From an uncultured Desulfobulbaceae bacterium (GTDB lineage Bacteria > Desulfobacterota > Desulfobulbia > Desulfobulbales > CALZHT01), in NCBI GenBank assembly GCA_945787445.1, contig CALZHT010000015.1, positions 1 through 40,407 of the forward strand: DNA of 40,407 bases. Reading direction: 5' to 3'. Both the position numbers and the translations under genes were made by a program. A model generated the notes under the pieces. The model saw nothing but the letters and a program-made list of their open reading frames with translations. It was not told the DNA's origin and did not search any database. This document shows positions 5,358-23,025 of the stretch, piece after piece; the stretch's first letter is position 1, and each line of letters starts with the position of its first letter.

Positions 5358-6821
5358 ATGACTGTTAGTAAGAGCAACGGAAGCTTTTTAAAAAACACAC
5401 TCACGCTTACTTCTGGAAATATTGGGGCGCAGGCGATAAAAATTGCACTGGTCCCAGTTGTTACTCGGCTATTTCCACCTGAATCTTTTGGCATTTTTTC
5501 AACGATAACTGCCATTATAATGGTAATATCTTCTGTTTCCCATTTCAGATATAATGTTGCTATTCAACTGCCAAATAAGGACGCTGACGCAGACTCTCTA
5601 GCATTACTATGTATTTCCCTTGTTTTTTTAACTTCTGCTACAGCCCTGATACCAATTTTGATTTTCAGGGACCAAATAGCACCTTTTTTAAAAATTAAGG
5701 ACAGCACTTATATTCTCTTATTTATCCCTTGCGGAATAATGTTAAGAGGAACGGTAATGATATTTAATCAGTGGCATCTTCGTTATAAGTCATTTGCTGG
5801 GATGTCAAAGGCATTAGTTTTTGGAGCGGTTTGTGACCGGATTATCACCCTTTTCTTTGGTTTCCTTGGAAGTACTGGTCCAATCGGCCTCCTGTCAGGG
5901 AGATATGCTGGAGTGTTTCTGACAAATATTTATCTGTTCTTTCACAGGGGAACGCGAAAGTTAATTTCCATATTCAAAAACGCAAACTTAGATTTAGTAA
6001 AAACTAATGCTGTTCACTTCAAAAAATTTCCTTTATACAGTTGGTCAGAATTTCTCCTTGAAGCAACAAACCATTTGCCTGTCATCCTGCTTGCATTTTT
6101 CTTCAATCAACAAATTGTTGGATATTTTGCGTTAACCAGGAGAGTACTCTCAGAACCGCTTCTCCTGTTTGGCAATGCTCTATCCAGAAGCTTTTTTCAA
6201 AAAACATCAGAGTTATACAGGGAAAATAAAGATGTAAGGGGATTCACTCTGCGCACGTTACATTTTCATTGTTTTGCATTAATCTTCCCAATGCTCTTTG
6301 TGGGCATTTTTGCGCAGGATTTATTTAAAATCATTTTTGGGGCACAATGGGTTCATGCTGGTTTATTTACTCAGCTCCTAATACCACTATTTATCATCGA
6401 CACTCTATTACGGCCAATGATGGGGCTTTTTGACATCCTTGTCAAACAAAGAGAACGAATGCTGTTTAATATCGCCTTATTTGTTAGTACCATCACTTTT
6501 TTTTCTTTAGGTGGTGTTTCAGAAAAACCATGGCTATCCCTTCTGGGCTATTCTGTATTCAACACGTTTATTATCTTGCTCATACTCTTTTGGATTTCAA
6601 AGCAGATAAACATTTCACACATCAAAATTGTCAAAATTATTGGTTCATATACGTTAAAAGCAGGATTTCTAATTACTATTTTGCTTGCTATTAAATTGCT
6701 TACCAATAATGTATATTTTAACCTCTTTACAGGACTAGTTGCTTGGGTAGCTTACTTACTATATTATCGCTTTATTGATGGCTATATGAGTAAAGAATTA
6801 CTCACATTATTAAAAAAATAA
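5358..6821 (+). CDS. Wzx-type polysaccharide flippase
   Basis: A 487-residue integral membrane protein of the MATE/PST (MOP) superfamily. The N-terminus shows the family pattern: a short polar lead, a first helix with TLTSGNIGAQAIKIALVPVV, then TRLFPPESFGIFSTI, the typical LxxPEDFG-like motif after TM1. About 12-14 hydrophobic segments follow, including a C-terminal pair near residues 430-475. In Wzx/Wzy pathways this enzyme moves lipid-linked oligosaccharide repeat units across the inner membrane. It is the first gene of the AT-rich block carrying the polymerase and sulfotransferases. The ATG at 5358 gives an N-terminus of normal length, but no strong Shine-Dalgarno is visible. Confidence 0.88.
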   Translation: MTVSKSNGSFLKNTLTLTSGNIGAQAIKIALVPVVTRLFPPESFGIFSTITAIIMVISSVSHFRYNVAIQLPNKDADADSLALLCISLVFLTSATALIPILIFRDQIAPFLKIKDSTYILLFIPCGIMLRGTVMIFNQWHLRYKSFAGMSKALVFGAVCDRIITLFFGFLGSTGPIGLLSGRYAGVFLTNIYLFFHRGTRKLISIFKNANLDLVKTNAVHFKKFPLYSWSEFLLEATNHLPVILLAFFFNQQIVGYFALTRRVLSEPLLLFGNALSRSFFQKTSELYRENKDVRGFTLRTLHFHCFALIFPMLFVGIFAQDLFKIIFGAQWVHAGLFTQLLIPLFIIDTLLRPMMGLFDILVKQRERMLFNIALFVSTITFFSLGGVSEKPWLSLLGYSVFNTFIILLILFWISKQINISHIKIVKIIGSYTLKAGFLITILLAIKLLTNNVYFNLFTGLVAWVAYLLYYRFIDGYMSKELLTLLKK

Positions 6822-7542
6822 TTGATTTGCCAACAACTTAAATTCAGAAACCTTAGTAACCAACTTATTTGTTCCATGAACAATGAAAGCCTCTCTAGTT
6901 TTATTAAAAGTACCGCTAAAGATTTTCCTCATGCCAAAATTATTTATATTTGCAGGGATGGCAATGTAGTATAATCTCCAAAAAAGGACTGTTAAGATTG
7001 GAATCTGGTTATGGATGTCAGCCCGATTCAAGCTATAAAATTTGGGTTGAAATCGAAGAAACGATGTAAAAAATTAGCAAGGACCATAGAATTTATTGAA
7101 GTAAAGTATGGATTGTGCTAACAATCCCCAAGATGGTAATCATCAAATTTCTGATTACCATCACACGGAAGAAAAAGGCTAAAAACATGATAATTATATC
7201 ATATCAAACGATAAGAATGATATTATCCCAGCAAACTAAAGACATTCACACACAAATGCAGGAAAAGCGCCCATGTTGTCGCGAATAGAGGGATGGCAAA
7301 ATGAAATCAACTATGCCGAGTGCTTCTTTTGCGAGAAGATAGTGAAGAAAAGGCTGCAGAACAGGAGCTAAAAACTTCTATGCCAGGATCAGAAAAATCT
7401 TTTTCAAGATTTATCTCTACTTTTTTTTAGAATAATACTTTTTCTCCGTTCGTTGCTTCACGTATCAAACAGGTTTCTGTATTATCTTCAAAATTTACAG
7501 CATTTGATGCAAACCTAGTTCACTAAAATAGGCAAACACGTG
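6822..7542. other. Long intergenic region with a perfect hairpin
   Basis: About 700 bp without a convincing gene. A minus-strand open frame at 6810-7031 (73 codons) has no recognisable homology to me. A perfect 11-bp inverted repeat, GATGGTAATCA (7132-7142) and TGATTACCATC (7152-7162) around a 9-base loop, is not followed by a T run. The region may be the remains of a deleted gene between wzx and wzy. Confidence 0.5.
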
Positions 7543-8805
7543 ATGGTTATTTTTGCAAAACTTCTAGCTATTCTTTCTTCAATAATCTTATTACTCTTTT
7601 TATTTTCTCCCAGAAAACTTGCATCTATTTACTACTTTATAAGGCCTCTAAGCCAGCCGGCTGCAAACGTTGGTATTTCATTAGTAGGCTTGCCAATTAC
7701 ATCATTTTATTCTCTTGTTGTTATTCTTTCTACAGTAGTCAATATTGCTCGAAGAGGAGCTCATTATATATTTGTAAAACACTCAATTATTCTGTATATA
7801 TTGATTTTATTTTCATCTTTATCATTTATAAACAGCGCAAATTATTCCATATCATTCTCAAGCATTATTAAAATTTTAACAGGGTTAAGCTTTTTTCTCT
7901 TGATCTATTCTAGTATAGAGACTTCAGATGATGGCTTATCTCTACTTAAAATGATTTCATATTCATCACTATTACCGTTATTTTTTGGATTTTATCAGTA
8001 CATTACCGGCATTGTGTTCATTTCCGGGAGTATTGGGCTTAAGGAAACAGACAGGATTAATAGTTTTATGGGGCAAGCTAATGCCTATGGTATTTATTTG
8101 ACCCTAGCGCTAATAGCTACTCTTATAGTAATATTTCACGAGGCAAATAAAAGAAAAAAAATAATCTTTATATCTATTCTAATAATGATAGTGATTGCAG
8201 AAATTCTTGCTAAGAATAGAGGCACATGGATTGCACTTCTTGCTGGGTTTACCCTGAGCGGCATTTTTTACAGAAAAATTATCAAACTTCGGTGGTATAT
8301 TGTTATTCTGCTAGCTATTGCCATACTTTTTTCAAATAATATTTATAATCGCTTTCAGGAATTAAACGAATTGAATGCAGCCGGACGTGTTCACAACACC
8401 TTCGCAGGCAGAGTCAACTATTGGAAAGAGTTGACTCCTCTTATTATGAAACATCCACTCATTGGCCACGGCATAGGCACATCATCTTTAGTCACTTCAC
8501 GGTATCTTAAAACAGAATTAGCACCCCATAACGACTATTTAAGGTTAGCGTTAGAAATTGGCATACCAGGTTCGTTCTTGTATTTTCTTTTCCTATTTTT
8601 CGAGTTATTCCGTAACATTAGGCTTGCATTAAAGAAATCATATTGGCAAGTAAACTACCCCATTCTTGCCTTGGCAATTTATTTTCTTATAATCAGCATG
8701 ACCCAGAATATTATAAATAATCTTATTAACTTTCCATTATTCACATCATTAGTTGCAGTGTCAATGCGAATGAATTCAATCTCCCGTTCAGAGTTGTCCT
8801 ACTAA
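7543..8805 (+). CDS. O-antigen ligase/polymerase family protein (Wzy-like)
   Basis: A 420-residue polytopic membrane protein with about 10-12 hydrophobic segments. The signature region of the O-antigen ligase family (PF04932) is present: KNRGTWIALLAGF near residue 225-240, and a large periplasmic loop with HPLIGHGIGTSS and APHNDYLRLALEIGIPG before the last helices. In a locus with Wzx and a phosphoglycosyltransferase but no other candidate, it is most likely the EPS repeat-unit polymerase, although WaaL-type ligases share the fold. The ATG at 7543 is preferred over the GTG codon immediately before it. It is followed after 28 bp by a sulfotransferase gene, consistent with co-transcription. Confidence 0.85.
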   Translation: MVIFAKLLAILSSIILLLFLFSPRKLASIYYFIRPLSQPAANVGISLVGLPITSFYSLVVILSTVVNIARRGAHYIFVKHSIILYILILFSSLSFINSANYSISFSSIIKILTGLSFFLLIYSSIETSDDGLSLLKMISYSSLLPLFFGFYQYITGIVFISGSIGLKETDRINSFMGQANAYGIYLTLALIATLIVIFHEANKRKKIIFISILIMIVIAEILAKNRGTWIALLAGFTLSGIFYRKIIKLRWYIVILLAIAILFSNNIYNRFQELNELNAAGRVHNTFAGRVNYWKELTPLIMKHPLIGHGIGTSSLVTSRYLKTELAPHNDYLRLALEIGIPGSFLYFLFLFFELFRNIRLALKKSYWQVNYPILALAIYFLIISMTQNIINNLINFPLFTSLVAVSMRMNSISRSELSY

Positions 8806-8833: not shown

Positions 8834-9739
8834 ATGAATAAAAAAAACTTGCCCAATTTAATTATCGCCGGGGTTACAAAAGCAGGAACAACCTCAATTT
8901 TCACCTATCTTGCTGCCCATCCTGAAATATGCCCGGCAAGCATAAAAGAGGTGTGCTACTTTCTGCCTTTACGATTTAATGAACCCATATTGCCGATTAG
9001 CAACTATCATAATTATTTCAATCATTGCAGCACCCAAAAATACCTGATGGAAGCATCACCAGCTTATTTTTTTGGTGGCAAAAAAATTTCTCACACTATA
9101 AAAAAAGAAATAAAATCACCCAAAATAATCATTGTGCTGCGCAACCCGGCAGACCGACTCTTTTCCTTTTTTAAATTTCATAAAAATATGCTTTCGCTAG
9201 ATAAAAATCTTTCATTCAGCGACTATTTACAAATCTGCCAAAACTTTGATTTCCATGATTCGCAAGATAAAGATAATTATATATATTTCAACTTGGCAGG
9301 AGGCATTTACAAGGATTACATAATTGATTGGCTTGAAGCATTTAGAGAAGACCTCAAAATTCTTTTTTTTGAAGATTTAAAGGATGACACCCGTCATTTC
9401 ATTAAGAATTTATGCGAATGGATAGATATTGATTCAGCTTTCTATGACTCTTATGACTTTCAGATTGAGAACAAAGCTCAATCCTATAAATTCAAATTTT
9501 TGCATCAAGTTTCTTTGACCATTAACCAAAAATGCGAAAAATTTTTTAGAAAACAAATTGCCTTGAAGAGACTTATTCGACGCCTTTACTACTCGCTTAA
9601 CAGTTCTTCTCGAAAAGATATTATGCAAAATAATGAGGAGCAATTTCTCCTTCAATATTACGCCCCCCATAACAAGGAGCTATATGATATTCTCAAACAA
9701 GCAGGGTATCGCCGCTTACCGGACTGGCTATTACATTAA
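8834..9739 (+). CDS. Sulfotransferase (PAPS-dependent), first of three
   Basis: A 301-residue protein of the Sulfotransfer_1 type. The 5'-phosphosulfate-binding loop is IIAGVTKAGTTSIF (residues 10-23), followed by LAAHPEICPASIKEVCYF, typical of heparan/carbohydrate sulfotransferases in which Lys16 contacts PAPS. The 3'-phosphate-binding motif is IIIVLRNPADRLFSFFKFH near residues 97-115. The C-terminal third is helical and basic. These enzymes move sulfate from PAPS to sugar hydroxyls in the cytoplasm. Lying between the polymerase and another sulfotransferase gene, it probably sulfates the EPS repeat unit. The acceptor sugar cannot be deduced. Confidence 0.88.
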   Translation: MNKKNLPNLIIAGVTKAGTTSIFTYLAAHPEICPASIKEVCYFLPLRFNEPILPISNYHNYFNHCSTQKYLMEASPAYFFGGKKISHTIKKEIKSPKIIIVLRNPADRLFSFFKFHKNMLSLDKNLSFSDYLQICQNFDFHDSQDKDNYIYFNLAGGIYKDYIIDWLEAFREDLKILFFEDLKDDTRHFIKNLCEWIDIDSAFYDSYDFQIENKAQSYKFKFLHQVSLTINQKCEKFFRKQIALKRLIRRLYYSLNSSSRKDIMQNNEEQFLLQYYAPHNKELYDILKQAGYRRLPDWLLH

Positions 9740-9769
9740 TATCATTACTCAAATCAAAAACAGATAACT

Positions 9770-10636
9770 ATGCTAGATAGCTTCCGAACAAGGCTAAGGG
9801 ATGTGATTTTTGGCAGGACCAAAATTCAAGTTGTTCAACAAGAAGTCCTCTCAAGAAAAGCACCCCCTCCGATTTTTATTATTGGGTGTTTTCGTTCAGG
9901 CACAACCTTATTGCGGTATTTCCTTGACAGTCATTGTAAGATCGCCTGCCCCCCTGAATCAAAATTTTTAGTCCATCTTGCCTCAATCTATAACACAGAA
10001 TCAACTATGGCCGCTTTTAATTCGCTAGGGTACGACCAAAATTATGTTAAGGATAGGATAAAAGAGTTTGTTGATAGTTTTTTCCTAGGGTATATGACTG
10101 CTCATCAAAAAAAGAGATGGGCTGACAAAACACCTGATTATGTTCGAATTTTAGAGTTTATCGAATGGCTCTATGGTCCAAACTGCCAATATATAATTAT
10201 TTACAGGAATGGCCTGGATGTTGCCAACTCAATGAACTCAACCTATATTGAAGCAATAGAAGGTGACAATAAAAATATATATAAGGCTTTTGAGTACTGG
10301 TATCATGACACAACAATCATACATAACTGGGAAAAACGTTATCCTGACCGGTGCTTCTCATTACATTATGAAAAATTATGTTTACATACTGAAAGTATGC
10401 TTAAGCAACTATTTTCTTTTCTCAATGAAGAATGGGACGAAAACGTTTTACAGTGGCATAAAATCAGCCATGAACGGGGGCAAGAAGATATAAAAGCTAG
10501 AAGGCAGCGTAAAATCCATCTTAGTCATGGATCATTTAAGCAATGGGATGCGACGATGCAGAATGATCTGAAATCCAAAAGTGAACAATTACATAGTCTA
10601 ATTGGATACGACCCAAAAACACTAATGCCAAAATGA
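9770..10636 (+). CDS. Sulfotransferase family protein, second of three
   Basis: A 288-residue protein of the Sulfotransfer_3-like group. The PAPS loop FIIGCFRSGTTLLRYFLDSH lies at residues 36-55, with Arg replacing the usual Lys of the first enzyme (RSGTT form). The 3'-phosphate motif YIIIYRNGLDVANSMN lies near 142-157. The middle contains the KRWADKTPDYVR stretch common in this group and the end has WHKISHERGQED. It differs from the 8834 gene throughout, so the two are separate lineages rather than a recent duplication. It begins 30 bp after the previous gene and is likely in the same transcript. An internal frame at 10,263-10,493 is a shadow. Confidence 0.87.
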   Translation: MLDSFRTRLRDVIFGRTKIQVVQQEVLSRKAPPPIFIIGCFRSGTTLLRYFLDSHCKIACPPESKFLVHLASIYNTESTMAAFNSLGYDQNYVKDRIKEFVDSFFLGYMTAHQKKRWADKTPDYVRILEFIEWLYGPNCQYIIIYRNGLDVANSMNSTYIEAIEGDNKNIYKAFEYWYHDTTIIHNWEKRYPDRCFSLHYEKLCLHTESMLKQLFSFLNEEWDENVLQWHKISHERGQEDIKARRQRKIHLSHGSFKQWDATMQNDLKSKSEQLHSLIGYDPKTLMPK

Positions 10637-10669
10637 GCAGCGTAATTACAAAATAGACAGACACTTTTG

Positions 10670-12727
10670 ATGGTACTTATATTCTTTCTTTTATTTATTA
10701 GTCTCTCTAGCGCTTTCCTTGTTGAACCTATCGCAGTAATTGCAAGTGACTACTCGTGGGTTTCCATCCCTTTAAGAAGCATGAAACAAAAAGAAAAAGG
10801 ATTATCTGGAGGCGAGGGCTTTCAAATGGTGATGTCTATCGTATATTCTCCAACGAATCCAGAAATTGTTTACATAGGGACTGACACCAGCGCGGTCTGG
10901 AAATCAATAGACGGGGGACAAAACTGGCATCCCCAATTCAATGGTTTTTTAGCGAAAGGTGCGGTCTCTCTAGGGGTCGATCCAGCAAACCATGATATTG
11001 TATATGCCGCAGGCATTGTTGGTAAAAAAGAAAAAAAATCCAGTAATCACCAATATGAAGGTAGAGGAATTTATCTCACAAAAGATGGGGGTCAATCATG
11101 GGTACAAAAGAAAAAGACTGATTTTTTCAAAAAATCGTCAAAAGGAAATCTCTTTGCCTTTGATTCACGCTCCATGGGTAGTAATAAAACCACGGTGGTT
11201 TATGCCGGAACTGACAAAGATGGTCTGCTTCGCTCTCATGATACAGGAGAAACTTGGAGCAACATCGGCTTAAAAGGTTTAGAAATCACAGACATTAAAG
11301 AAAACCCACACCATAAAGGCGAGTTCCTAATTGCCACTCAAGAGGGACTTTATTCATTATTGAACAACCAGATTTACAAAAAAAATACTAACTTGCCGGC
11401 AACGCCGAGCACCATTTCTTTTTGCCAGAATATTCCCCAAACAATATATGCCGCACTAGGGAAATGGGGCATTTACAAATCCATTGATAATGGCTCGACC
11501 TTTTCAGCATCTCATCATGGCCTGCCCAAGAAAGAGTTTAATGATGTATGCGTAAGCCCTGTTAATTGCAATATCGTTTATACTCGTGGCCATAATGCGT
11601 CTTTGGGCCCTTTCTACAGCCATAACGGAGGTAAAAAGTGGAATTACCCAAAGGATACAGACTATGGCGATCTTATTGAAAATGAAGGATTTTGGTTTTC
11701 AAGCCCATTCGCAGCCCATCCTGTTCTTGAAAAAGAAGCTCTCCATGTATCTAATGGCCGGGCAAAGATTCTAAAAACGACCGATGGCGGAGTCAATTGG
11801 TCATATTCAGGTTCTGGGTACACCGGAGGACGAATGATAGATATAGCTTTTATTTCCAACAAATCCATGATTTTCAGTTTGACAGACCATGGTCTATGGT
11901 TAACAGAAGATGCTGGTGCAACTTTCAAAGAGTTAAAAGTCAATAAAAGATTTGGACGAAAGTCATCCTCAGCAGTCAGTGTATCCGGTAACACTATAAT
12001 CACTTCCCTAGGACGTTGGGAAAAACAAGCGATACAAGCCAGTTTTGACAGGGGAGAGACCTGGAAGTCTTTTAATAAGTTAACCGGCGCTAAATGTTTT
12101 ATTAAGTTTCACCCTCAGCAAAAAGAAACTATCTATGGCGGGAAATATAAGAGTATTGACGGGGGATATTCGTGGACTGATCTTGAATATGAAGTCCTAG
12201 GTATGTTTCCCCTAAATGGCGATATATTATATGCTGCAACGGCTGAATCCAATAAATTCAGTATTATTATGAAATCTACAGATGGGGGAGCATCATGGAT
12301 TCAGTTCGGGGATAAATTGCCTATCCCTCGTAAAGCTATTAATGATCTGGCAATAGATCCTGCTGATCCGAATCGAATTTATTTAGCTACAAATAAAGGA
12401 TTGTGGTTTCTTGACAGCAAACTTAAATGGAATGCTAGGAACGAAAAACACGGCATTGAAAAAGATGCCTTTAGCAAGGATTTTATTGTGTGCGTAGAAG
12501 TTGATCCCAACAATCCGGACATTGTTTATCTTGGCAAAAGTTCTCCCGGCAGCGGCAGATCGAACGGAGTGTTCCGTTCAACAGATAAAGGTAAGACATG
12601 GATCAATTTCAATCAAAACCTTTCTCCCGGAATAACTGTATGGACAATAGAAATTAGTCCATTTAACAGCTCCGTATTCTTAGGTACGTCTCTCGGTACT
12701 TTTACACTTAGGCGGGATAATTATTAA
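10670..12727 (+). CDS. Secreted Asp-box (BNR) beta-propeller protein, sialidase-like fold
   Basis: A 685-residue protein with an N-terminal signal segment (hydrophobic residues 2-25). It carries at least eleven Asp-box repeats of the SxDxGxxW/F type, among them SIDGGQNW, TKDGGQSW, SHDTGETW, SIDNGSTF, SHNGGKKW, TTDGGVNW, TEDAGATF, SFDRGETW, SIDGGYSW, STDGGASW and STDKGKTW. Preceding strands have the DPxNPDIVY pattern. This is the layout of VPS10/sortilin-like and oligoxyloglucan-hydrolase-like propellers. No catalytic Asp/Arg-triad of true sialidases can be assigned. Placed between sulfotransferase genes, it may bind or process the EPS outside the inner membrane. The ATG at 10,670 is preferred to the adjacent TTG. 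Confidence 0.82.
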   Translation: MVLIFFLLFISLSSAFLVEPIAVIASDYSWVSIPLRSMKQKEKGLSGGEGFQMVMSIVYSPTNPEIVYIGTDTSAVWKSIDGGQNWHPQFNGFLAKGAVSLGVDPANHDIVYAAGIVGKKEKKSSNHQYEGRGIYLTKDGGQSWVQKKKTDFFKKSSKGNLFAFDSRSMGSNKTTVVYAGTDKDGLLRSHDTGETWSNIGLKGLEITDIKENPHHKGEFLIATQEGLYSLLNNQIYKKNTNLPATPSTISFCQNIPQTIYAALGKWGIYKSIDNGSTFSASHHGLPKKEFNDVCVSPVNCNIVYTRGHNASLGPFYSHNGGKKWNYPKDTDYGDLIENEGFWFSSPFAAHPVLEKEALHVSNGRAKILKTTDGGVNWSYSGSGYTGGRMIDIAFISNKSMIFSLTDHGLWLTEDAGATFKELKVNKRFGRKSSSAVSVSGNTIITSLGRWEKQAIQASFDRGETWKSFNKLTGAKCFIKFHPQQKETIYGGKYKSIDGGYSWTDLEYEVLGMFPLNGDILYAATAESNKFSIIMKSTDGGASWIQFGDKLPIPRKAINDLAIDPADPNRIYLATNKGLWFLDSKLKWNARNEKHGIEKDAFSKDFIVCVEVDPNNPDIVYLGKSSPGSGRSNGVFRSTDKGKTWINFNQNLSPGITVWTIEISPFNSSVFLGTSLGTFTLRRDNY

Positions 12728-12748
12728 GGAAATTAATTACTTTACAAT

Positions 12749-13765
12749 ATGGCAAGTAATAATCTGGAACCAATTTATATTGTTGGAAACAGCCGGAGTG
12801 GCACAACCATGATGGCAACAATATTAGCAAAAAATCCTCTGGTATATACATTTAAGGAGATCCACTTTTTTGAGAGGATTCTACACCCTTCCATTGACAA
12901 ACAACCGTTAAGCCGTAACCAAGCAGAAAATCTTGGTGCCCTATTACTAGGAATTGAATTTGAGGGCCATTTTTTTTTAAAAAAACCTGAAAAGTATCTT
13001 GAAGAATCTCGTAAAATGTTAACTAGTTGTAATAATAAGTCTCTAAGCCATACAGAAATCTACAAGATATTTCTTTCATATGTATCAACAAAAAACAGTA
13101 AAAAACGTCCTTGCAAACAAACACCGCAGAATATTTTTTATATTAAAGATATATTAAAAATAATTCCTCGTGCAAAATTTATTCATATTGTAAGAGATCC
13201 CCGGGCTGTTCTACTTTCTCAAAAATATAAGTGGAAGCGAAGGTACAGAGGAGGAAGTACACCTTTTTGGGAGTCGTGCCGGACATGGTCGAATTACCAC
13301 CCTCTTGTCATCAGCAAGCTCTGGAAAAGTTCCGTTGGAGCCGGATATAATTTTTTAGACCATCCACATGTCTTCACGATCCGTTTTGAGGACCTTGTTA
13401 TTAGCCCTCAAAATCAGCTTCGAAAATTATGTAATTTCCTAGGATTAGAGTACAGTCATCAAATGTTAGATATACCACACAGAGGATCATCAAATGCTGA
13501 AGATAACCACAATAAGAGGGGAATAAATCCCAGCATAGCAGAAAAGTGGAAAAAGGGATTATCTGCAACAGAAATATACTGGTGTCAGGCTATCAACAAG
13601 AACCTCATGAACAAGTTTGATTATAGCATTTTGCCAATACAGATTAATTATTTTTCAATAGCGTGGTCTTGCTTATTGCTACCATGCAAATTACTATTGG
13701 CAATAATCTTCAATTATAAGAGGTTCAAAAGCATCTTTCATGTAATAAAAAGGCGCATCTTGTAA
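12749..13765 (+). CDS. Sulfotransferase family protein, third of three
   Basis: A 338-residue protein with PAPS loop YIVGNSRSGTTMMATILAKNP at residues 10-30 and 3'-phosphate motif FIHIVRDPRAVLLSQKYKWK near residues 143-162. The stretch RFEDLVISPQNQLRKLCNFL matches the family's downstream helix. Unusually, the C-terminus (about residues 295-325) has a hydrophobic segment flanked by basic residues, ending in KRRIL, so it may be membrane associated. It begins 21 bp after the Asp-box gene and closes the AT-rich block. With the genes at 8834 and 9770 it argues for several sulfation positions or several acceptor sugars on the EPS. Confidence 0.86.
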   Translation: MASNNLEPIYIVGNSRSGTTMMATILAKNPLVYTFKEIHFFERILHPSIDKQPLSRNQAENLGALLLGIEFEGHFFLKKPEKYLEESRKMLTSCNNKSLSHTEIYKIFLSYVSTKNSKKRPCKQTPQNIFYIKDILKIIPRAKFIHIVRDPRAVLLSQKYKWKRRYRGGSTPFWESCRTWSNYHPLVISKLWKSSVGAGYNFLDHPHVFTIRFEDLVISPQNQLRKLCNFLGLEYSHQMLDIPHRGSSNAEDNHNKRGINPSIAEKWKKGLSATEIYWCQAINKNLMNKFDYSILPIQINYFSIAWSCLLLPCKLLLAIIFNYKRFKSIFHVIKRRIL

Positions 13766-13885: not shown

Positions 13886-15085
13886 GTGAAACTCCTACTT
13901 GTAAATAAATTTTTCCATTTAAACGGTGGCTCAGAGAAGGTATTTTTTCAGGAGCGTACCTTTTTGAAGGGAAAGGGTGTAGAGATCGTTGATTTTTCAA
14001 TGCAGGACGACAGAAATTTTCCATCTCCCTACTCCGAGTATTTCGTTCCCAACATTAGCTATAACAATGACAGAAGTGCCCAAACTAGGTTTCAGCATGC
14101 AATATCCTTTGCACATTCGTCGATTGCGGTAGAACGTCTTGAAAAACTTCTCCAGCAGGAGCAGCCGTCGATCGCTCATCTCCACAACATCTACCATCAA
14201 CTCACTCCCTCAATCATCCCGGTATTGAAACGGCACGGGATTAAGGTTGCCCTGACCCTGCATGATTACAAGCTCGTGTGTCCCAGCTATCTTGCCCTGA
14301 ATGGCGAGGAGATCTGCACAGCGTGTAATGGCCGTTTTTTCTGGAAGCCGTTAACCACCAACTGCCAGGGAAGTCGCATTAAAGGACTGCTTCTGGCAGT
14401 GGAGGCTTTTTTTCACAAATGGCGGAAGAGTTACGAGGCGGTAGATCTTTTTATCTCACCCAGCCGGTTTCTTGCCGATCTGACCTCTTACCGCATCCCG
14501 CAGAATAAGATCCGTATTTTGCATAACGGTATTGATGTTGCCGAATACCTGCCAAATCTTAATGACCAAGGATATGGTCTTTATTTCGGCAGAATTTCAA
14601 GAGAAAAAGGCATTGAAACTCTTCTGAAGGCTCATGCAGCCATGGCGACATCGGTGCCGCTCAAGGTGGTGGGCACTGGTCCCCTGCTGGAAGAATTGCA
14701 TAGCAAGTATACTGGAGCGGAGTTCCTTGGCTACAAATCCAGTGATGAGTTGAACTGCATTATTAAAAACGCTGCATTTGTGGTTGTTCCCTCGAAGTGG
14801 TATGAAAATTGCGCAATGGCCATATTAGAGGCCATGGTCTTTGGCAAGCCGGTTATCGGCAGCCGGATTGGCGGGATACCCGAACAGATCCAGGACAATA
14901 AAACAGGCTTTCTTTTTGAGATGGGGAATAGCGAGGAGTTGGCTGAGAAAATGAAAATCCTGGCCTGCGATCCAGAGATGCGCACTCGAATGGGTCATGC
15001 TGCAAGAAAGAAACTTGAAAAAGAATATTCCCTTGCCTCGCACTGCAAGGGTTTAATGGATATCTGCAATGAACTTCTTCAATAA
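13886..15085 (+). CDS. Glycosyltransferase family 4 (GT-B fold), paralogue of the 19,583 gene
   Basis: A 399-residue GT4 enzyme. The N-terminal half begins KLLLVNKFFHLNGGSEKVFF (the glycine-rich acceptor-side loop), with HLHNIYHQLTPSIIPVL near 93-109 and LTLHDYKLVCPSY. The C-terminal donor domain has GRISREKGIETLLKAH, and the EX7E signature ENCAMAILE followed by AMVFGKPVIGSRIGGIPE, which binds the nucleotide-sugar. The start codon is GTG at 13,886, aligning exactly with the ATG of the equal-length paralogue. It is the first gene of a compact operon (14 bp, then 6 bp gaps) with the radical SAM gene and another GT4. Base composition is clearly richer in G+C than the sulfotransferase block just upstream. 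Confidence 0.9.
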   Translation: MKLLLVNKFFHLNGGSEKVFFQERTFLKGKGVEIVDFSMQDDRNFPSPYSEYFVPNISYNNDRSAQTRFQHAISFAHSSIAVERLEKLLQQEQPSIAHLHNIYHQLTPSIIPVLKRHGIKVALTLHDYKLVCPSYLALNGEEICTACNGRFFWKPLTTNCQGSRIKGLLLAVEAFFHKWRKSYEAVDLFISPSRFLADLTSYRIPQNKIRILHNGIDVAEYLPNLNDQGYGLYFGRISREKGIETLLKAHAAMATSVPLKVVGTGPLLEELHSKYTGAEFLGYKSSDELNCIIKNAAFVVVPSKWYENCAMAILEAMVFGKPVIGSRIGGIPEQIQDNKTGFLFEMGNSEELAEKMKILACDPEMRTRMGHAARKKLEKEYSLASHCKGLMDICNELLQ

Positions 15086-15099
15086 AGGACAATTAAGAT

Positions 15100-16092
15100 A
15101 TGGAAGCCTGTCTTATAGTCACCTATCGCTGCAATGCCAAATGCTATATGTGCAATACCTGGCAGCATCCGAGTAAGAAAGAAGAGGAGTATGGCCCTGA
15201 ACTGGTCGACAAGCTGCCCGATGGCCTTGATTTCATTAATATCACCGGTGGCGAACCCTTTCTTCGCCAAGACATTGAACAGATCGTTGAAAAAGCCCTG
15301 ACAAAAACCAAACGCCTGGTAATCTCCTCCAATGGGTATTTCACTGAAAAGATAATCAAACTTTTTCAGCGGTTCGGCAACCAGCTCGGGATTCGCATTT
15401 CCATCGAAGGTTTGCCTGCTGCTAACGACGAACTGCGAGGTATAAAAAACGGCTTTGACCACGGTATCCGCACTCTGACCACTCTGCATGGCATGGGCAT
15501 CAAGGATATCGGATTCGGCATTACGGTTTCCGACCGTAATGCCAAGGATATGATCGAGCTTTACCGGCTGGCCGATGCAATGGGCCTGGAGTTCGCTACT
15601 GCCACAACTCATAACTCCTTTTATTTTCATAAGGAGGATAACCGATACCAGGATGCGGAAATGGTGGCTAAAGAATTTGAGCGTATCGCAAAGGAACTCC
15701 TTAAGTCGAACCGGCCCAAGAACTGGTTCCGGGCCTATTTCAACATGGGTCTGGCGCGAATGGTACGGGGGCAGGAGCGAGCCCTTCCCTGCGAGGTGGG
15801 CACCGATATGTTTTTTGTCGACCCCTTTGGCAATATCATGCCCTGCAATGGTTCCGACGAGCCCATGGTCATGGGCAATCTGTATCATGAATCATTTGAA
15901 TCAATATGGAACAGCCCCCAGGCTGAAATAATTCGGCAACAGGTGAGGGAATGTCCGAAGCAGTGTTGGATGATCGGCTCTGCTGCACCGGCCATGAAGA
16001 AGCGCATCACTGTGCCGCTCAAATGGGTGGCTAAAAATAAGTTAAAGGTGATGAAGGATGGCGACAGGGCCTGCCTGGACCCCATCGCGTAA
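15100..16092 (+). CDS. Radical SAM protein with C-terminal cysteine (SPASM/twitch-like) region
   Basis: A 330-residue radical SAM enzyme. The [4Fe-4S] motif CxxxCxxC is at Cys11, Cys15 and Cys18 (VTYRCNAKCYMCNTW), the SAM-binding TGGEP at residues 49-53 and a VISSNG strand at 74-79. The C-terminal part has Cys231, Cys249 (in the FVDPFGNIMPC motif), Cys285 and Cys289, consistent with a shortened SPASM or twitch domain holding one auxiliary cluster. The sequence GNLYHESFESIWNS is typical of SPASM proteins. It sits between two glycosyltransferase genes with gaps of 14 and 6 bp, so it is surely co-expressed with them. It probably modifies a sugar or lipid-linked intermediate, but substrate and reaction are unknown; no RiPP precursor-like small gene is adjacent. 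Confidence 0.88.
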   Translation: MEACLIVTYRCNAKCYMCNTWQHPSKKEEEYGPELVDKLPDGLDFINITGGEPFLRQDIEQIVEKALTKTKRLVISSNGYFTEKIIKLFQRFGNQLGIRISIEGLPAANDELRGIKNGFDHGIRTLTTLHGMGIKDIGFGITVSDRNAKDMIELYRLADAMGLEFATATTHNSFYFHKEDNRYQDAEMVAKEFERIAKELLKSNRPKNWFRAYFNMGLARMVRGQERALPCEVGTDMFFVDPFGNIMPCNGSDEPMVMGNLYHESFESIWNSPQAEIIRQQVRECPKQCWMIGSAAPAMKKRITVPLKWVAKNKLKVMKDGDRACLDPIA

Positions 16093-16098
16093 ACGGCT

Positions 16099-17217
16099 AT
16101 GAAGATTTTTGTCACTGGCACCAGGGGCATTCCTGATATACCGGGCGGGGTTGAAAAGCACTGCCAGGAGCTTTATCCCCGCATTGCCGCCCTGGGCCAC
16201 GAGGTTATTCTTGCCACGCGCACGCCCTATATCCCCGATAAGAGAGAGGATTGGGAAGGAGTGCGCTTGTCCCACATCTTTGCTCCCAAGCTCAAGAGTT
16301 TGGAGGCCATTGTCCATACATTTCTTGCTTTGCTTAAAGCTCGGTTGATCTGTCCTGATGTAGTTCATATCCATGGTGTGGGGCCAGCTCTTCTTATCCC
16401 TTTTGCCAAGATCGTGGGGCTTAAGGTGGTTTTAACCAATCACGGCCCGGATTATGATCGCCAGAAATGGGGGAAACTTGCCAAATGTGCACTTCAGTTC
16501 GGAGAAAAACTAGGTGGAAAATTTGCCTATGAGATTATTGTTATATCAAAGGTTATCGACGATATCATGAGCCGGCGATACGGCCGAAAAAGTCACCTAA
16601 TCTATAACGGCGTCACCCTTCCGGCCCCAAGCACCGATTCTGACTACCTGGAAAAACTTGGCTTAAAACCGCAAAAATATATTCTTGCTGTGGCCCGCTT
16701 TGTTCCGGAAAAAGGCTTAACCGATCTTCTTGAGGCATTTATTCAACTTACAGGAGATTTTCAGTTGGTCATCGCAGGTGACGCGGATCATGAAACCGAG
16801 TACAGCATGAAGGTAAAAAAACTTGCAGCCGGTAATAATCGGGTTGTGTTGGCCGGATACATCACGGGTGAGAAGCTCAACCAAGTATTTTCCCATGCGG
16901 CATTATTTGTTTTACCTTCGTATCATGAGGGATTACCGATTGCTCTGCTGGAAGCTCTTAGCTTTGGATTGTCGGTTCTGGTCTCTGACATACCTGCAAA
17001 TCAGGAAGTTAACCTGCCTCCGGAAAGATTTTTTCGCTGCGGAGATCTTATAGACTTACGGGATAAAATTAAGAAGCTTTTAAAGCATCCCATACGTCAG
17101 GAAGAACGGAAAGAATATTTAGAAATCCTGGCGGAAAAGTATGATTGGAGCCGGATTGCCCTTCAAACAATAGCCGTGTACCAAAAAGTTGTTACTGGCA
17201 AATCGAAATCTTATTGA
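16099..17217 (+). CDS. Glycosyltransferase family 4
   Basis: A 372-residue GT4 enzyme. The N-terminus MKIFVTGTRGIPDIPGGVEK with HCQELYPRIAALGHEV belongs to the group with DUF1972-like N-terminal domains seen in EPS clusters. VHIHGVGPALLIPFAK and LTNHGPDYDRQKWGK mark the acceptor domain. The donor domain has LAVARFVPEKGLTDLLEAF and the EX7E motif EGLPIALLE followed by ALSFGLSVLVSDIPANQE. It transfers a nucleotide-activated sugar to the growing lipid-linked repeat unit on the cytoplasmic face. The start is six bases after the radical SAM stop. It is the last gene of the GC-richer trio, followed by a repeat element. Confidence 0.9.
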   Translation: MKIFVTGTRGIPDIPGGVEKHCQELYPRIAALGHEVILATRTPYIPDKREDWEGVRLSHIFAPKLKSLEAIVHTFLALLKARLICPDVVHIHGVGPALLIPFAKIVGLKVVLTNHGPDYDRQKWGKLAKCALQFGEKLGGKFAYEIIVISKVIDDIMSRRYGRKSHLIYNGVTLPAPSTDSDYLEKLGLKPQKYILAVARFVPEKGLTDLLEAFIQLTGDFQLVIAGDADHETEYSMKVKKLAAGNNRVVLAGYITGEKLNQVFSHAALFVLPSYHEGLPIALLEALSFGLSVLVSDIPANQEVNLPPERFFRCGDLIDLRDKIKKLLKHPIRQEERKEYLEILAEKYDWSRIALQTIAVYQKVVTGKSKSY

Positions 17218-17565: not shown

Positions 17566-18969
17566 ATGTTCCAGCAGCAAGTTTACATTATTAACACAGT
17601 ACTGATGATGCTTGATGCGCTTTGTGTCATTGCAGCAGGGTATAGTGGCTATTATCTAAGGGCGTTTTTTTTTGAAAACAGTTTGTATCTTGATGGTCAA
17701 ATTTTTATCGCTTCCGTTTTAGTTGTAATGTTCATTAATAACTACAGTATGGGGAAATTTGAGCTCTATAGCGACAATACTCCTCCCAACACCCTCAGTC
17801 TGTTATGGTCAATATGCAAAGCTGTTATCGTGACCTTTGTTTTTATCACAACGGCCATCTTTTTGTTACAGATAGAAGAGTATACCAGGACATTTTTACT
17901 TCTTTTTTCCGCTTTTACTTTTATTTTTATTGCTCTACAAAGAATTATTGCACGATTCTATATAGATAGAATATCCAAAAATAGATTTAATGCCCGCAAG
18001 CTCCTTGTGGTGGGCAATCTAAGTAGGGGGAAAATTGTATCGGATATGCTGGAAAACCAGTTGAGTTGGGGGCATGAAGTAGTTGGCAGGTTAACCTCGC
18101 ACCAAGAAGAAAATGGTATAGGCGAGACAATGGGAACCATTGACGATCTTCCCAACGTTCTCCGTGAGAAGGCAATAGACGAAGTTATATTTACTCTCAG
18201 TGGGGATCGAAATATCAATTTAACCCGTCATATTGATATCTGCAGAAAAATGGGAGTGCCGGCCAGGATTTTACCAGCTCTCTGGACTCCTGGGATTCAC
18301 CCCCTTTCAGTGGAAAAATGCCAGGAAGTCCCCTTTCTCACCTTGCATGTGGATAATTTTAATGCCACAGGACTACTCTACAAAAGGATCCTTGATATAG
18401 TTGGCAGCCTGGTTGGAACAATCACCTTCCTTATTATGTATCCCTTTGTTGCAATCGCAATAAAATCGGATTCCTCAGGACCCGTTCTTTTCAAACAACG
18501 GAGAAAAGGGCAGCATGGCCGTGTTTTCAACCTCTATAAATTTAGGTCAATGTACATCAATGCAGAAGAGCTGAAACAGGACTTAATGAGCAAAAATGTA
18601 ATGAATGGAGCCATGTTTAAACTTAAGGATGATCCCAGGATTACTCGTGTCGGCAAATGGCTTCGAAAGAATTCTCTAGATGAATTTCCGCAGTTTGTAA
18701 ATGTCCTCAAAGGAGAAATGAGCTTAGTTGGCACCCGTCCTCCAACTTTAGAAGAAGTTGAAAGATACAATCCTGAGCACCTAAAAAGAATTGCGGCAAA
18801 ACCCGGGCTCACGGGATTATGGCAAATTTCAGGGAGAAATAAAATCACTGACTTTGATAAAGTTGTGGAATTGGATTGCAAATATCTTGAAAATTGGCGT
18901 TTTGTGGATGACATAAAAATTTTAGCCAAGACAATTTGGGTTGTTTTGCATCGTAAAGGGGCACTGTAG
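17566..18969 (+). CDS. Polyprenyl-phosphate sugar-1-phosphate transferase (WcaJ/PglC-type initiating enzyme)
   Basis: A 467-residue initiating phosphoglycosyltransferase. Four to five N-terminal membrane segments (about residues 1-130) are followed by a Rossmann-like region (KLLVVGNLSRGKIVSDML, about 145-162). A membrane hairpin at about 272-300 leads into the catalytic bacterial sugar transferase domain (PF02397). Its motifs are intact: FKQRRKGQHGRVFNLYKFRSM, DDPRITRVGKWLRKNSLDE with FPQ after it (catalytic Asp-Glu), LVGTRPP, and KPGLTGLWQISGRN. It loads the first sugar phosphate, often glucose or galactose, onto undecaprenyl phosphate at the inner membrane. A repeat element lies on each side, so the gene is isolated from the GT operons but clearly part of the locus. 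Confidence 0.93.
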   Translation: MFQQQVYIINTVLMMLDALCVIAAGYSGYYLRAFFFENSLYLDGQIFIASVLVVMFINNYSMGKFELYSDNTPPNTLSLLWSICKAVIVTFVFITTAIFLLQIEEYTRTFLLLFSAFTFIFIALQRIIARFYIDRISKNRFNARKLLVVGNLSRGKIVSDMLENQLSWGHEVVGRLTSHQEENGIGETMGTIDDLPNVLREKAIDEVIFTLSGDRNINLTRHIDICRKMGVPARILPALWTPGIHPLSVEKCQEVPFLTLHVDNFNATGLLYKRILDIVGSLVGTITFLIMYPFVAIAIKSDSSGPVLFKQRRKGQHGRVFNLYKFRSMYINAEELKQDLMSKNVMNGAMFKLKDDPRITRVGKWLRKNSLDEFPQFVNVLKGEMSLVGTRPPTLEEVERYNPEHLKRIAAKPGLTGLWQISGRNKITDFDKVVELDCKYLENWRFVDDIKILAKTIWVVLHRKGAL

Positions 18970-19582: not shown

Positions 19583-20782
19583 ATGAATATACTACTAGCA
19601 AACAAATTTTTTTATTTAAATGGTGGATCAGAGAGGGTTTTCTTCCAGGAACGTGATTTCCTTTTGAGGAATGGAATAAAAGTTATTGACTTCTCAATGG
19701 AAGATCCGAGGAATTTTTATTCGCCTTATTCCTCGTTCTTTATTTCTCAAATCGATTATAAAAATTCTTCCGGGCTTATCAATAATGTAAAAAGTGGAGC
19801 AAATTTTATTCATTCATCAGAATCTGTAAAAAAAATAAAAAAATTGATTACAAAAGAAAAACCGCACATTGCACACCTGCATAACATATATCACCAGATC
19901 ACACCGGCAATTATTCCAGTACTCCATGAATATGGTGTTAAAATAATCCTTACATTGCATGATGGAAAACTGATATGCCCTTCGTATTTAATGTTAGATA
20001 AAGGGAATATATGCACGTCATGCGCTGGTCGATATTTCTGGAGATCGATGACAAGGAACTGCCAAGGCTCCTATATGAGAGGGGCGTTATTCATGCTTGA
20101 AGGTTTTTGGCATAAATGGAAGAGGAGCTATCAACTTGTTGATCTTTTTATTGCACCGAGCCAATTTCTTGCCGACTTGACACGCCTAAGAATTCCTGAA
20201 AACAAGATTATTATATTGCATAATGGAATTAATACTGATGCCCCCCCTCCTCATCCACAGGATGCAGGATATGCTCTGTATTTTGGCAGGCTCTCAAGGG
20301 AAAAGGGAGTTGAGACACTTCTGAAGGCCCATCATCTACTATCAAATGGCATTGAATTAAAAATAGTCGGCACCGGCCCTCTGGAGGATAAATTGCGTTC
20401 TAAATTTCCTTCTGTAGAATTTCTTGGCCATCTGGAGGGAGATGCATTAAATAATGCTATTGTTCACTCCTCTTTTGCCATTGTGCCTTCCGAGGTGAAT
20501 GAAAATTGCTCTATGGTGATTCTCGAAGCCATGGCTATGGGAAAACCAGTAATCGGAAGCAGAATCGGGGGGATACCAGAACAAATTGAAGATGGGGAAA
20601 CCGGACTTTTGTTTGAAATGGGAAATGCGAAAGATCTTGCCAGTAAGATACAATTTCTCATGAAAAATCACCCCACGCGGATAGATATGGGTAAGGCGGC
20701 AAGGAAAAAGCTGGAAGCAGAATATTCACTCACCGATCACTGTCGCAACTTGCTGAAAGCATATGAAAATATCCTGAAGTAG
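19583..20782 (+). CDS. Glycosyltransferase family 4, paralogue of the 13,886 gene
   Basis: A 399-residue GT4 of exactly the same length as the 13,886 product and alignable without obvious gaps: NILLANKFFYLNGGSERVFF against KLLLVNKFFHLNGGSEKVFF, and HLHNIYHQITPAIIPVL, ICPSYLML, GRLSREKGVETLLKAHH and the EX7E motif ENCSMVILE with GKPVIGSRIGGIPE. The shared CxxCxGRYFWRSMTRNCQGS region suggests similar acceptors. Codon use is more AT-rich than in the paralogue, so the two were probably acquired or have evolved separately rather than arising from a fresh duplication. It probably adds another residue of the same sugar type to the repeat unit. Confidence 0.9.
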   Translation: MNILLANKFFYLNGGSERVFFQERDFLLRNGIKVIDFSMEDPRNFYSPYSSFFISQIDYKNSSGLINNVKSGANFIHSSESVKKIKKLITKEKPHIAHLHNIYHQITPAIIPVLHEYGVKIILTLHDGKLICPSYLMLDKGNICTSCAGRYFWRSMTRNCQGSYMRGALFMLEGFWHKWKRSYQLVDLFIAPSQFLADLTRLRIPENKIIILHNGINTDAPPPHPQDAGYALYFGRLSREKGVETLLKAHHLLSNGIELKIVGTGPLEDKLRSKFPSVEFLGHLEGDALNNAIVHSSFAIVPSEVNENCSMVILEAMAMGKPVIGSRIGGIPEQIEDGETGLLFEMGNAKDLASKIQFLMKNHPTRIDMGKAARKKLEAEYSLTDHCRNLLKAYENILK

Positions 20783-20896: not shown

Positions 20897-21868
20897 ATGG
20901 ATACGAAAAATATTTTACGAAAAGCAGATTGTTTTCTGAATCACACAATCCTCAAACGCTTCGGAGATAAGCCCTCTTTGCTTATTCTTGCCTTTCATTC
21001 AATTCTAGAGGATGGTTTGAAAGAATCCCGTGCGAACATTGATCCATATGCGAATCATGGCATTACCGATTCGGTTTTTCGCAGTTGTGTCGATTACTTT
21101 TACTGCAAAGGGTATACCTTTATTTCGCCGGTCGACATCCTTAAAGGATTGTATCCTGATAAACCATATATCATGATTACCTTTGATGATGGGTACGCGA
21201 ATAACTCTCGCGCCCTGCCTGTTCTGCACGAGTATAAAATACCGGCGGTGTTTTTTATCACGGCAGAAAATGTACGCATTAATCAAAGTTTCTGGTGGGA
21301 TATTGCTTGGCGTAAACGCAAGGAACAAGGATGGATTGATCAGCGCATTTTAAAAGAGCAAGATAGTTTGAAACAGAAGACGGCAGAAGCAATCGATGCC
21401 TATATCAACGAAAGCTTTGGCACACAGGCATTCTCTCCCCAATCAGCGCATGACCGACCGTTTACACCCGATGAATTGCGTGCATTCTCTCAGGATGAAT
21501 TCGTGCATATCGGAAATCATGCCTTTCGCCACGCCCTGTCTCTAGCGTATACTCCTGAACAATGGAGTAAGCAGATTAGCCAAGCACAGGAGTATCTTGC
21601 TTCTTTGACCGGTTATGATCCGTTGATCTTCGCCTATCCTGATGGATACTGGGACGATGCAGGAGTGAGCGCCTTGCGGGCGTGCGGTATTCCACTGGCA
21701 GTGACGGTGGATTGGCGCAAAAATTACCTGCCGCTTGAAGAAACCGGCGACGGATTGCTCAAACTCGCTAGATTTGTGCTCAATGGCCACCAGGATGTTG
21801 TCCTCCAATGCAGACTATTTCGCTGCGATTTTTCAGTATATGGTATGTTAAAGAGATTTGTCGGCTGA
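20897..21868 (+). CDS. Polysaccharide deacetylase (NodB homology domain, CE4)
   Basis: A 323-residue protein with the NodB domain. The catalytic base and metal ligand motif TFDDGYANN is at residues 95-103 (Asp97, Asp98), and the metal-binding HxxxH is His208-Ala-Phe-Arg-His212. ILAFHSI near the N-terminus and FAYPDGYWDDAG near 245-256 are also family features. It removes N- or O-acetyl groups from sugars of the EPS. No signal peptide is visible, so it may act in the cytoplasm on lipid-linked intermediates, as with the deacetylases attached to PEP-CTERM-type EPS loci. It follows the GT4 after about 115 bp; AAGGAATAGG precedes the start. Confidence 0.88.
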   Translation: MDTKNILRKADCFLNHTILKRFGDKPSLLILAFHSILEDGLKESRANIDPYANHGITDSVFRSCVDYFYCKGYTFISPVDILKGLYPDKPYIMITFDDGYANNSRALPVLHEYKIPAVFFITAENVRINQSFWWDIAWRKRKEQGWIDQRILKEQDSLKQKTAEAIDAYINESFGTQAFSPQSAHDRPFTPDELRAFSQDEFVHIGNHAFRHALSLAYTPEQWSKQISQAQEYLASLTGYDPLIFAYPDGYWDDAGVSALRACGIPLAVTVDWRKNYLPLEETGDGLLKLARFVLNGHQDVVLQCRLFRCDFSVYGMLKRFVG

Positions 21869-22434
21869 ACGGTGCATGCAGATAATATCTAGATAAATTC
21901 CTTGAGGTTGATGGAAATTAACAGTAAAAGAATTCCGGAATGGATAAAGATAACTTATGATCGTAATTAGGTCCGGCGATCTGAATCGTGACGATGCTAT
22001 TAAACGCTAGGGAATTACTTTTGAAACCGCCAGGAGTGAATGTTTCCCGGAATCATGCGAGACTTTTAGGATTGACCGGGAAAATGGTAATGAAATCGTA
22101 TCCCAAGAGATGGAAGATTAATGCCCCTTTAGACTGCTTGAATCAAATTGCAATTTGTCCTTGCGGATATTGTAACGCAGTTTACGCAACCACTCACAGA
22201 GAGCTTCGGGAGTATGGGTGTTACTATGATGAACAGGCTTTCCGCCAGGTGCGGAGACGAAGCCGAAGTTATGCTTACAATGAGACAAGCAGACTCCCAC
22301 AAGTGCTGTAAATTTGTTTGTTTTATTTTTCTCCTGGGGGAACAACTGTAAGGGCACTTTAATTGGGCGCAGATCGGACCTTTATGCTTAATCACCCCGA
22401 TATTTTTTTACAAGTACATCAAGGAAGGAAGTTT
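21869..22434. other. Intergenic region, possible decayed element
   Basis: About 560 bp between the deacetylase and the export gene. Several short frames overlap on both strands (21,988-22,311, 22,148-22,351 and 22,129-22,395 reverse), none with motifs I recognise. CCGC-CAGGT-GCGG at about 22,244-22,256 is a short hairpin. Open frames on both strands over the same 200 bp, with moderately high G+C, suggest a remnant of a mobile element or an RNA-coding repeat, but this is not established. Confidence 0.4.
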
Positions 22435-23025
22435 ATGAAATTTAACAAAAAAATGTTTGTATTCTTTATCTTCATTATAATGAGCGCATTACCTGCCTGG
22501 ACGCTTGGGCAAGAAAACAAGCCGGCAGAATCGAGCCAGGGATTAGACTATGTTCTCGGCCCCAGTGATATTCTCGATATTTCCGTTTGGAAAAATGATG
22601 CTCTTACTAAACAATTGCCTGTTCTTCCTGATGGCAAAATTTCCTTCCCCCTAATAGGTGAGGTCATGGCCGGCGGAAAGACGGTTGCCAAACTCAAGGA
22701 AGAACTGGAAAAAAAACTTACCAACTTTATATCAAGCCCCGTCCTCTCTGTTGTGGTGACCCAGGTTAATAGCATGCAGATCTATGTTATCGGCAGAGTC
22801 AACAGACCTGGGCGCTACCAGATAAACACCGACATTAATACGCTCCAGGCCCTTGCCCTGGCTGGTGGGCTGACCCCTTTTGCAAAAAGAGAAAAAATTA
22901 AATTATTCAGAGAAGTAGATGGCAAGACTCGGATTTTTTCATTCAATTACGATAAGGTCTCACAAGGAGAAAATCTTGACCAAAATATCCAACTCAAAAG
23001 AGGAGATGTGATAGTTGCCCCCTAG
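22435..23025 (+). CDS. Polysaccharide export protein (Wza-like, PEP-CTERM locus type)
   Basis: A 196-residue periplasmic/outer-membrane export protein. A signal peptide (about residues 1-23, ending before QENK) is followed by the Poly_export domain (YVLGPSDILDISVWKNDALT, LPDGKISFPLIGEVMAGGKT) and an SLBB domain (YVIGRVNRPGRYQINTDINT, LQALALAGGLTPFA). There is no lipobox cysteine, unlike E. coli Wza, and the protein is short, as in the subfamily attached to PEP-CTERM EPS loci. The ATG at 22,435 is chosen over the longer frame from 22,363 because of AAGGAAGGAAG just upstream and because it gives a clean signal peptide. It opens the export module and is followed after 23 bp by the outer-membrane protein. 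Confidence 0.9.
   Translation: MKFNKKMFVFFIFIIMSALPAWTLGQENKPAESSQGLDYVLGPSDILDISVWKNDALTKQLPVLPDGKISFPLIGEVMAGGKTVAKLKEELEKKLTNFISSPVLSVVVTQVNSMQIYVIGRVNRPGRYQINTDINTLQALALAGGLTPFAKREKIKLFREVDGKTRIFSFNYDKVSQGENLDQNIQLKRGDVIVAP

Follow-up and report, generated by a model that had tools for sequence, protein, structure and literature searches.

Three divergent sulfotransferases and a GH74-like protein in a Wzx/Wzy locus of a Desulfobulbales bacterium point to a multiply sulfated exopolysaccharide

Sulfated polysaccharides are well known from animals and seaweeds. To our knowledge, few groups of bacteria are proven to make them, chiefly cyanobacteria and certain marine bacteria.

Synechan of Synechocystis PCC 6803 is among the closest described systems. 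Its xss genes form a Wzx/Wzy cluster whose two sulfotransferases belong to distinct subfamilies, and sulfate has been measured in the exopolysaccharide (EPS) (PMC8205485). The wps-1 locus of Actinoplanes missouriensis (PMC13390465) is a predicted Wzx/Wzy locus that combines two sulfotransferases from different families with a glycoside hydrolase; sulfation is a prediction there too. Vibrio sp. KMM 8419 (PMC11641403) and Cobetia marina KMM 1449 (PMC11766843) carry sulfotransferase and PAPS genes in polysaccharide clusters, and their sulfated capsules have been chemically characterised.

Here we analyse a window of 40,407 nucleotides (the whole stretch of DNA under study) from an uncultured Desulfobulbaceae bacterium. 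With synechan it shares a Wzx/Wzy locus that holds sulfotransferases of distinct subfamilies. However, synechan has two sulfotransferases and its own regulators and lies on the megaplasmid of a cyanobacterium, whereas the window has three sulfotransferases, a GH74-like protein and PEP-CTERM-like export genes in a dsrA-bearing Desulfobulbales genome. The Actinoplanes locus differs in its host, an actinomycete, in its link to the sporangium matrix and in its hydrolase, which is a GH26 and not GH74-like. The Vibrio locus has three sulfotransferase genes like the window, but they are scattered over 95 kb, and in both Vibrio and Cobetia the capsule is made by ABC-transporter-type synthesis, unlike in the window. 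In its predicted workings the locus resembles these systems; it is set apart by three divergent sulfotransferases in one tight run, a GH74-like putative enzyme and a dsrA-bearing Desulfobulbales host. The best reading of this locus, predicted from genomics and with a probability of about 0.75, is that it makes a multiply sulfated repeat unit.

The window holds a nearly complete Wzx/Wzy locus, and all genes described here lie on the + strand. It includes a Wzx flippase (Polysacc_synt_3; 5358..6821; PF13440, 51.2 bits) and a Wzy polymerase (Wzy_C / O-antigen ligase family; 7540..8805; PF04932, 62 bits). The polymerase opens a tight co-directional run, Wzy-ST1-ST2-AspBox-ST3, in which four open reading frames lie exactly at 8834-9739 (ST1), 9770-10636 (ST2), 10667-12727 (the Asp-box protein) and 12749-13765 (ST3), with gaps of 21-30 bp. 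Then follow a GT4 glycosyltransferase (13886..15085), which neighbours the Asp-box gene in relatives (63-64% identity in loci L019 and L021), and a radical SAM/SPASM protein (15100..16092), also a conserved neighbour (73-80% in L019, L021 and L065). Family searches identify two further GT4 glycosyltransferases, at 16099..17217 and at 19583..20782, the latter a paralogue of the enzyme at 13886-15085. Between these two lies the initiating sugar-phosphate transferase (Bac_transf; 17566..18969; PF02397, 218.8 bits), and after them a polysaccharide deacetylase (20897..21868; PF01522, 85 bits).

The export genes comprise a Wza-type outer-membrane export protein (22363..23025; PF02563, 79.8 bits; TIGR03027, 140.9 bits with a cut-off of 180), a protein like the PEP-CTERM-system outer-membrane protein (23049..24230; TIGR03016, 56 bits, cut-off 90.85), a Wzz-type chain-length determinant (24249..25826; PF02706, 31.4 bits; TIGR03007, 257.7 bits, cut-off 278.85), a tyrosine-kinase-type ATPase (25875..26696; PF13614, 45.3 bits) and a PEP-CTERM-associated ATPase (26862..27932; TIGR03015, 323.3 bits, cut-off 324.5). 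The defining families of a Wzx/Wzy locus, PF13440, PF04932, PF02706, PF02563 and PF02397, thus occur together. The models of the XrtA/PEP-CTERM EPS locus (TIGR03007, TIGR03015, TIGR03016 and TIGR03027) all match clearly, and all four stay under their NCBIfam cut-off. Hence we call the export group only PEP-CTERM-like. An exosortase is encoded on another contig, C27 (PF09721, 215.9 bits; TIGR02602 above cut-off; XrtA subtype TIGR03109, 177.9 bits with a cut-off of 208).

All three sulfotransferases exceed their Pfam cut-offs: ST1 matches Sulfotransfer_1 (59 bits, cut-off 22), and ST2 and ST3 match Sulfotransfer_3 (95 and 99.8 bits, cut-off 27). The 5'-loop for PAPS is intact in each (TKAGTTS, FRSGTTL and SRSGTTM in ST1, ST2 and ST3), with the basic residues K16, R42 and R16. 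The 3'-loops are intact as well (RNPADRLFS, RNGLDVANS and RDPRAVLLS), keeping Arg and Ser as RNP..S, RNG..S and RDP..S. A Glu aligns across the three proteins (E39, E63 and E37), and in ST1 and ST2 it also aligns with the Glu region of NST-1 and TPST. We take these residues to be candidate catalytic bases. ST1 and ST2 have neither signal nor membrane segment, while ST3 has a C-terminal hydrophobic segment at residues about 301-323. ST1 and ST2 look soluble, and ST3 is perhaps attached to the membrane.

The three enzymes share 20-24% pairwise identity and have different nearest solved structures. ST1 is heparan NDST/3-OST-like: it comes nearest to the bacterial sulfotransferase 3rnl and to heparan NDST (N-deacetylase/N-sulfotransferase) and 3-OST. 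For ST2, which is TPST/NoeE-like, the nearest is protein-tyrosine sulfotransferase TPST1 (71 bits); the match to the model of NoeE, the Nod-factor fucose sulfotransferase, is weaker (59.7 bits). For ST3 the nearest are sulfotransferase domains from the CurM and olefin-synthase pathways. The original prediction, three sulfotransferases of different subgroups with intact PAPS loops next to a polymerase and a large Asp-box protein, is thus borne out by profile searches and gene order. The families concerned also include peptide, lipid and small-molecule enzymes; TPST, nearest to ST2, and the polyketide-synthase sulfotransferases, nearest to ST3, are examples. A phage search with ST1 gave no match. 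In the whole genome of 4.46 Mb, family searches find five sulfotransferase genes. Since three of the five lie within 5 kb, the clustering of ST1-ST3 is not due to chance.

The host belongs to the Desulfobulbales, the order of Desulfobulbus elongatus DSM 2908. Its genome contains dsrA, which encodes the sulfite reductase typical of sulfate reducers; hence the bacterium most likely reduces sulfate or is metabolically close to organisms that do. The genome also has a gene for a bifunctional ATP sulfurylase/APS kinase of 574 residues (872.7 bits, cut-off 669), so PAPS can presumably be made. In a sample of 194 Desulfobulbales genomes, sulfotransferases (matches to PF13469 or PF00685 with E at most 1e-6) occur in 109 and APS kinase in 139. 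Of the 194 genomes, 101 have both, 8 only a sulfotransferase, 38 only APS kinase and 47 neither (Fisher p about 9e-14, uncorrected for kinship and genome size). Loci with three sulfotransferases and polysaccharide genes are also present in G016, G060 and G007. The original prediction called a multiply sulfated exopolysaccharide a rare feature in bacteria. For this order, with its several multi-sulfotransferase loci, that is overstated, and synechan, Vibrio and Cobetia are characterised precedents elsewhere.

The orthologous locus is found in DeMMO2_17 (G021), a related MAG. Its contig C90 ends with Wzy and the front part of a sulfotransferase. Contig C12 starts with a sulfotransferase gene of which only the rear part is present; next come AspBox-GT4-APS kinase-radical SAM-GT4 and then exosortase, initiating transferase, Wza, Wzz and kinase genes. 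We searched for an exact sequence overlap between C90 and C12 and found none; the adjacency is therefore deduced from the split sulfotransferase gene and the gene order. Most likely the two contigs are one locus split by an assembly gap, with the gene order of the window and an APS kinase of its own. In G122 an ST2-like gene adjoins a GT4-radical SAM pair, whose radical SAM and GT4 proteins are 80% and 62% identical to those of the window, and an ST3-like gene lies on the same contig. Read across the contig gap, the order in DeMMO2_17 is Wzy-ST-AspBox-GT4-APS kinase-radical SAM-GT4. In the other genomes searched the set of three sulfotransferases is not conserved as a block, and exactly ST1+ST2+ST3 occurs in none of them.

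D. elongatus (G071) has a run of Wzy, Wzx, acyltransferase, Asp-box, GT4 and radical SAM genes. No sulfotransferase was detected in its genome (PF13469/PF00685, E at most 1e-6). An acyltransferase thus takes the place that sulfotransferases have in the other loci. Hence the Asp-box protein goes with the polymer locus rather than with sulfation itself. Its family is rare, present in 3 of the 194 genomes of the order and in 2 of 395 genomes of a broader phylum sample. In G476, from another family of the phylum, a flippase and a sulfotransferase lie about 4 kb away from the homologue. A scan of a genome collection yields only D. elongatus, DeMMO2_17 and two distant matches, in Dehalococcoidia and Thermoanaerobaculia, that have no EPS context.

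The Asp-box protein starts with a signal-like hydrophobic segment, as a secreted protein would, and contains 11 Asp boxes (Pfam Sortilin-Vps10, 90.9 bits; BNR, 48.8 bits). GH74 enzymes consist of tandem seven-bladed Asp-box propellers (PMC2716378) and have two catalytic Asp residues, which in PoXEG74 are D70 and D477 (PMC10317168). The AlphaFold2 model of the Asp-box protein (pLDDT 78.6, pTM 0.74) is predicted to have the same tandem seven-bladed architecture. Its best Foldseek matches are GH74 xyloglucanases (E 1.5e-27), and in VIA GH74 fills the top ranks with Z 29-32 over about 590-605 residues (best 31.9 over 599). Single-propeller rows in VIA reach Z near 25-27 and span only half of the protein. 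A profile-profile comparison between the Asp-box family and GH74 gives E 3.5e-31.

For the residue comparison, five plasmid-encoded GH74 sequences served as the reference set. Every MAFFT and hhalign setting tried places the two catalytic Asp residues of GH74 on D73 and D407. In real GH74 the pair has a spacing of 412, in line with D70/D477 of PoXEG74 (PMC10317168). HMMER on short fragments had first suggested that D407 corresponds to a TGYGIW stretch; the real GH74 sequences settled the matter for the catalytic Asp. Compared with the GH74 xyloglucanases (2cn2, 6p2m, 7kn8), the protein shares the tandem propellers and the candidate catalytic pair, but identity is about 16-20%, the D73-D407 stretch is about 80 residues shorter, and it sits in a locus for polymer synthesis instead of xyloglucan use. 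The NCBIfam model F510_1955 scores 128 bits (cut-off 175). A different substrate groove is expected from the shorter stretch.

The original prediction left open whether this protein is a lectin or a processing enzyme. The GH74 fold match and the conserved Asp pair shift the balance to the enzyme: on model and alignment we favour an endo-glycosidase or chain-trimming hydrolase, and not simply a lectin. Its substrate would be the polymer of the locus itself, as its gene position suggests.

Taken as a pathway, the locus would work as follows. The Sat-APS kinase would make PAPS in the cytoplasm. Bac_transf and the three GT4 enzymes, judging from their families, would build up a short repeat unit attached to a lipid carrier. 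With one initiating transferase and three GT4 genes, we estimate about four sugars and up to three sulfates per repeat. ST1, ST2 and ST3 would each sulfate a different position of the unit, with PAPS as the donor. PAPS is cytoplasmic, and ST1 and ST2 lack signal and membrane segments; sulfation therefore most likely precedes the flip by Wzx. Wzy would then polymerise the units, while Wzz, Wza and the PEP-CTERM-like proteins would control length and export. After Wzy, the exported GH74-like protein would cut the chain in the periplasm or outside, and the cutting could set polymer length or clear stalled polymer. We consider it likely that the locus builds and exports a Wzx/Wzy EPS sulfated at up to three positions of its repeat unit, with the GH74-like protein cutting the chain.

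This reading has four competitors. A sulfated polymer would also result if the Asp-box protein were a non-catalytic lectin or assembly scaffold built on the GH74 fold. Such a role would fit the low identity to real GH74, the shortened stretch between the two Asp and the G476 homologue, which is strongly divergent around the second motif. Yet D73 and D407, unlike most surface residues, are invariant across all four homologues, and we regard a pure binding protein as possible, if rather unlikely. Nor must three sulfotransferases add three sulfates. Some might be inactive or redundant on one position; a possible decayed sulfotransferase nearby suggests that such genes can be lost at the locus, and in the synechan system deleting xssE had little effect on bloom formation or on the amount of EPS (PMC8205485). 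The frames, PAPS loops and candidate bases of ST1-ST3 are all intact, though, and fewer than three sulfates seems to us a minority prospect.

Less probable still is that the sulfated glycan is an O-antigen or a capsule and not a free EPS. Wzx and Wzy serve these as well, and the Wzy match is to a ligase/polymerase superfamily; but the Wza, Wzz, TIGR03016-like and TIGR03015-like genes indicate a PEP-CTERM-like export system. A target other than EPS, be it a lipid, a secreted protein (through tyrosine sulfation by TPST-like ST2) or a small molecule, is the least probable of these alternatives. The nearest structures of ST2 and ST3, TPST1 and the CurM-type enzymes, would allow it. However, all three genes belong to one tight run flanked by Wzy and a glycosyltransferase, NoeE is a further match of ST2, and homologous sulfotransferases of relatives are located in polysaccharide loci. 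The original prediction of a multiply sulfated EPS thus gains support from genomics: the operon-like run in a Wzx/Wzy locus, the Sat-APS kinase, the APS kinase and sulfotransferase of the relative, and the recurrent multi-sulfotransferase loci of the order.

We found no paper on sulfated EPS in Desulfobulbales in the open-access literature, the scope of our search. About half of the genomes sampled from the order have sulfotransferases, and if the multiply sulfated EPS is real, sulfated-polysaccharide chemistry would extend to anaerobic sediments. Such polymers would be an organic-sulfate store in the sulfur cycle, and their loci a source of new carbohydrate sulfotransferases and of a hydrolase that may cut sulfated polymer. 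A broader reading, which we offer tentatively and think doubtful as a whole, joins these points. Sulfate-reducing Desulfobulbales would widely make densely sulfated, glycosaminoglycan-like EPS, so that sulfate would serve them in two ways, in respiration as the acceptor and in the matrix as a decoration. At this locus a new branch of the GH74 fold would have been taken up as a hydrolase that is linked to synthesis and acts on sulfated or acylated polymer, and sulfotransferase and acyltransferase genes would be exchanged in the slot between Wzy and hydrolase.

 Between Wzx and Wzy, a broken frame (6876..7118, + strand) with in-frame stops and what resembles a 3'-PAPS-loop remnant may be a decayed fourth sulfotransferase. 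A tblastn search of the Wzx-Wzy gap against the local sulfotransferases found nothing. The frame matches PF13469 weakly (14.9 bits, E 0.033, under cut-off), and its best phmmer score against the local sulfotransferases is 12.4 bits, with shuffled controls (n=100) at most 8.2. As the signal comes from profile methods only, the pseudogene call is tentative. Furthermore, GC content is 0.33-0.40 from Wzx to ST3, whereas it is 0.40-0.51 in the downstream genes; the AT-rich stretch looks as exchangeable EPS cassettes usually do.

The genome of the window contains two further sulfotransferases besides the three in the exopolysaccharide (EPS) locus. They lie on contigs C27 and C177 (L004:9598-10581 and L005:462-1406) and are accompanied by Wzx-like and glycosyltransferase genes. 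Because homologues of both are grouped together in L031, a locus of genome G060, the genome may carry a second sulfated-glycan locus. Contig C27, which holds one of these sulfotransferases, also encodes an exosortase (L003:14180-15016).

Other Desulfobulbales genomes have glycosyltransferase clusters in which sulfotransferase genes occur together with APS kinase genes (L032 and L038 in G004 and G028, L037 in G128). The presence of APS kinase genes inside these clusters suggests that PAPS is supplied locally for glycan sulfation.

Long proteins with a C-terminal Sulfotransfer_3 domain are a separate, common kind in Desulfobulbales. Such proteins (550-760 aa) occur in many genomes of the order; the frame at L039:8375-10516 is one example, with similar frames elsewhere. 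Several genomes have an APS kinase gene no more than a few kb from the long frame (for example on G036 C19, G134 C73 and G137 C75).

Immediately 5' of Wzx in the window, two similar secreted proteins are encoded at 882-2531 and 3348-4805. The former matches a right-handed beta-helix model (33 bits); the latter has no match in Pfam or NCBIfam. For both, possible roles in the EPS locus are polymer lyase, epimerase or surface protein. Between Wzx and Wzy, 6876-7118 is possibly the remnant of a fourth sulfotransferase.

The most conserved local gene encodes a radical SAM/SPASM protein (15100-16092, within the EPS locus), with 73-80% identity in the related loci L019, L021 and L065. A GT4 gene adjoins it in each case, and the radical SAM/SPASM protein perhaps modifies a sugar. 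The EPS locus lies immediately 5' of a gene for a DUF4438 protein (28568-29449) with both domains (196 and 157 bits).
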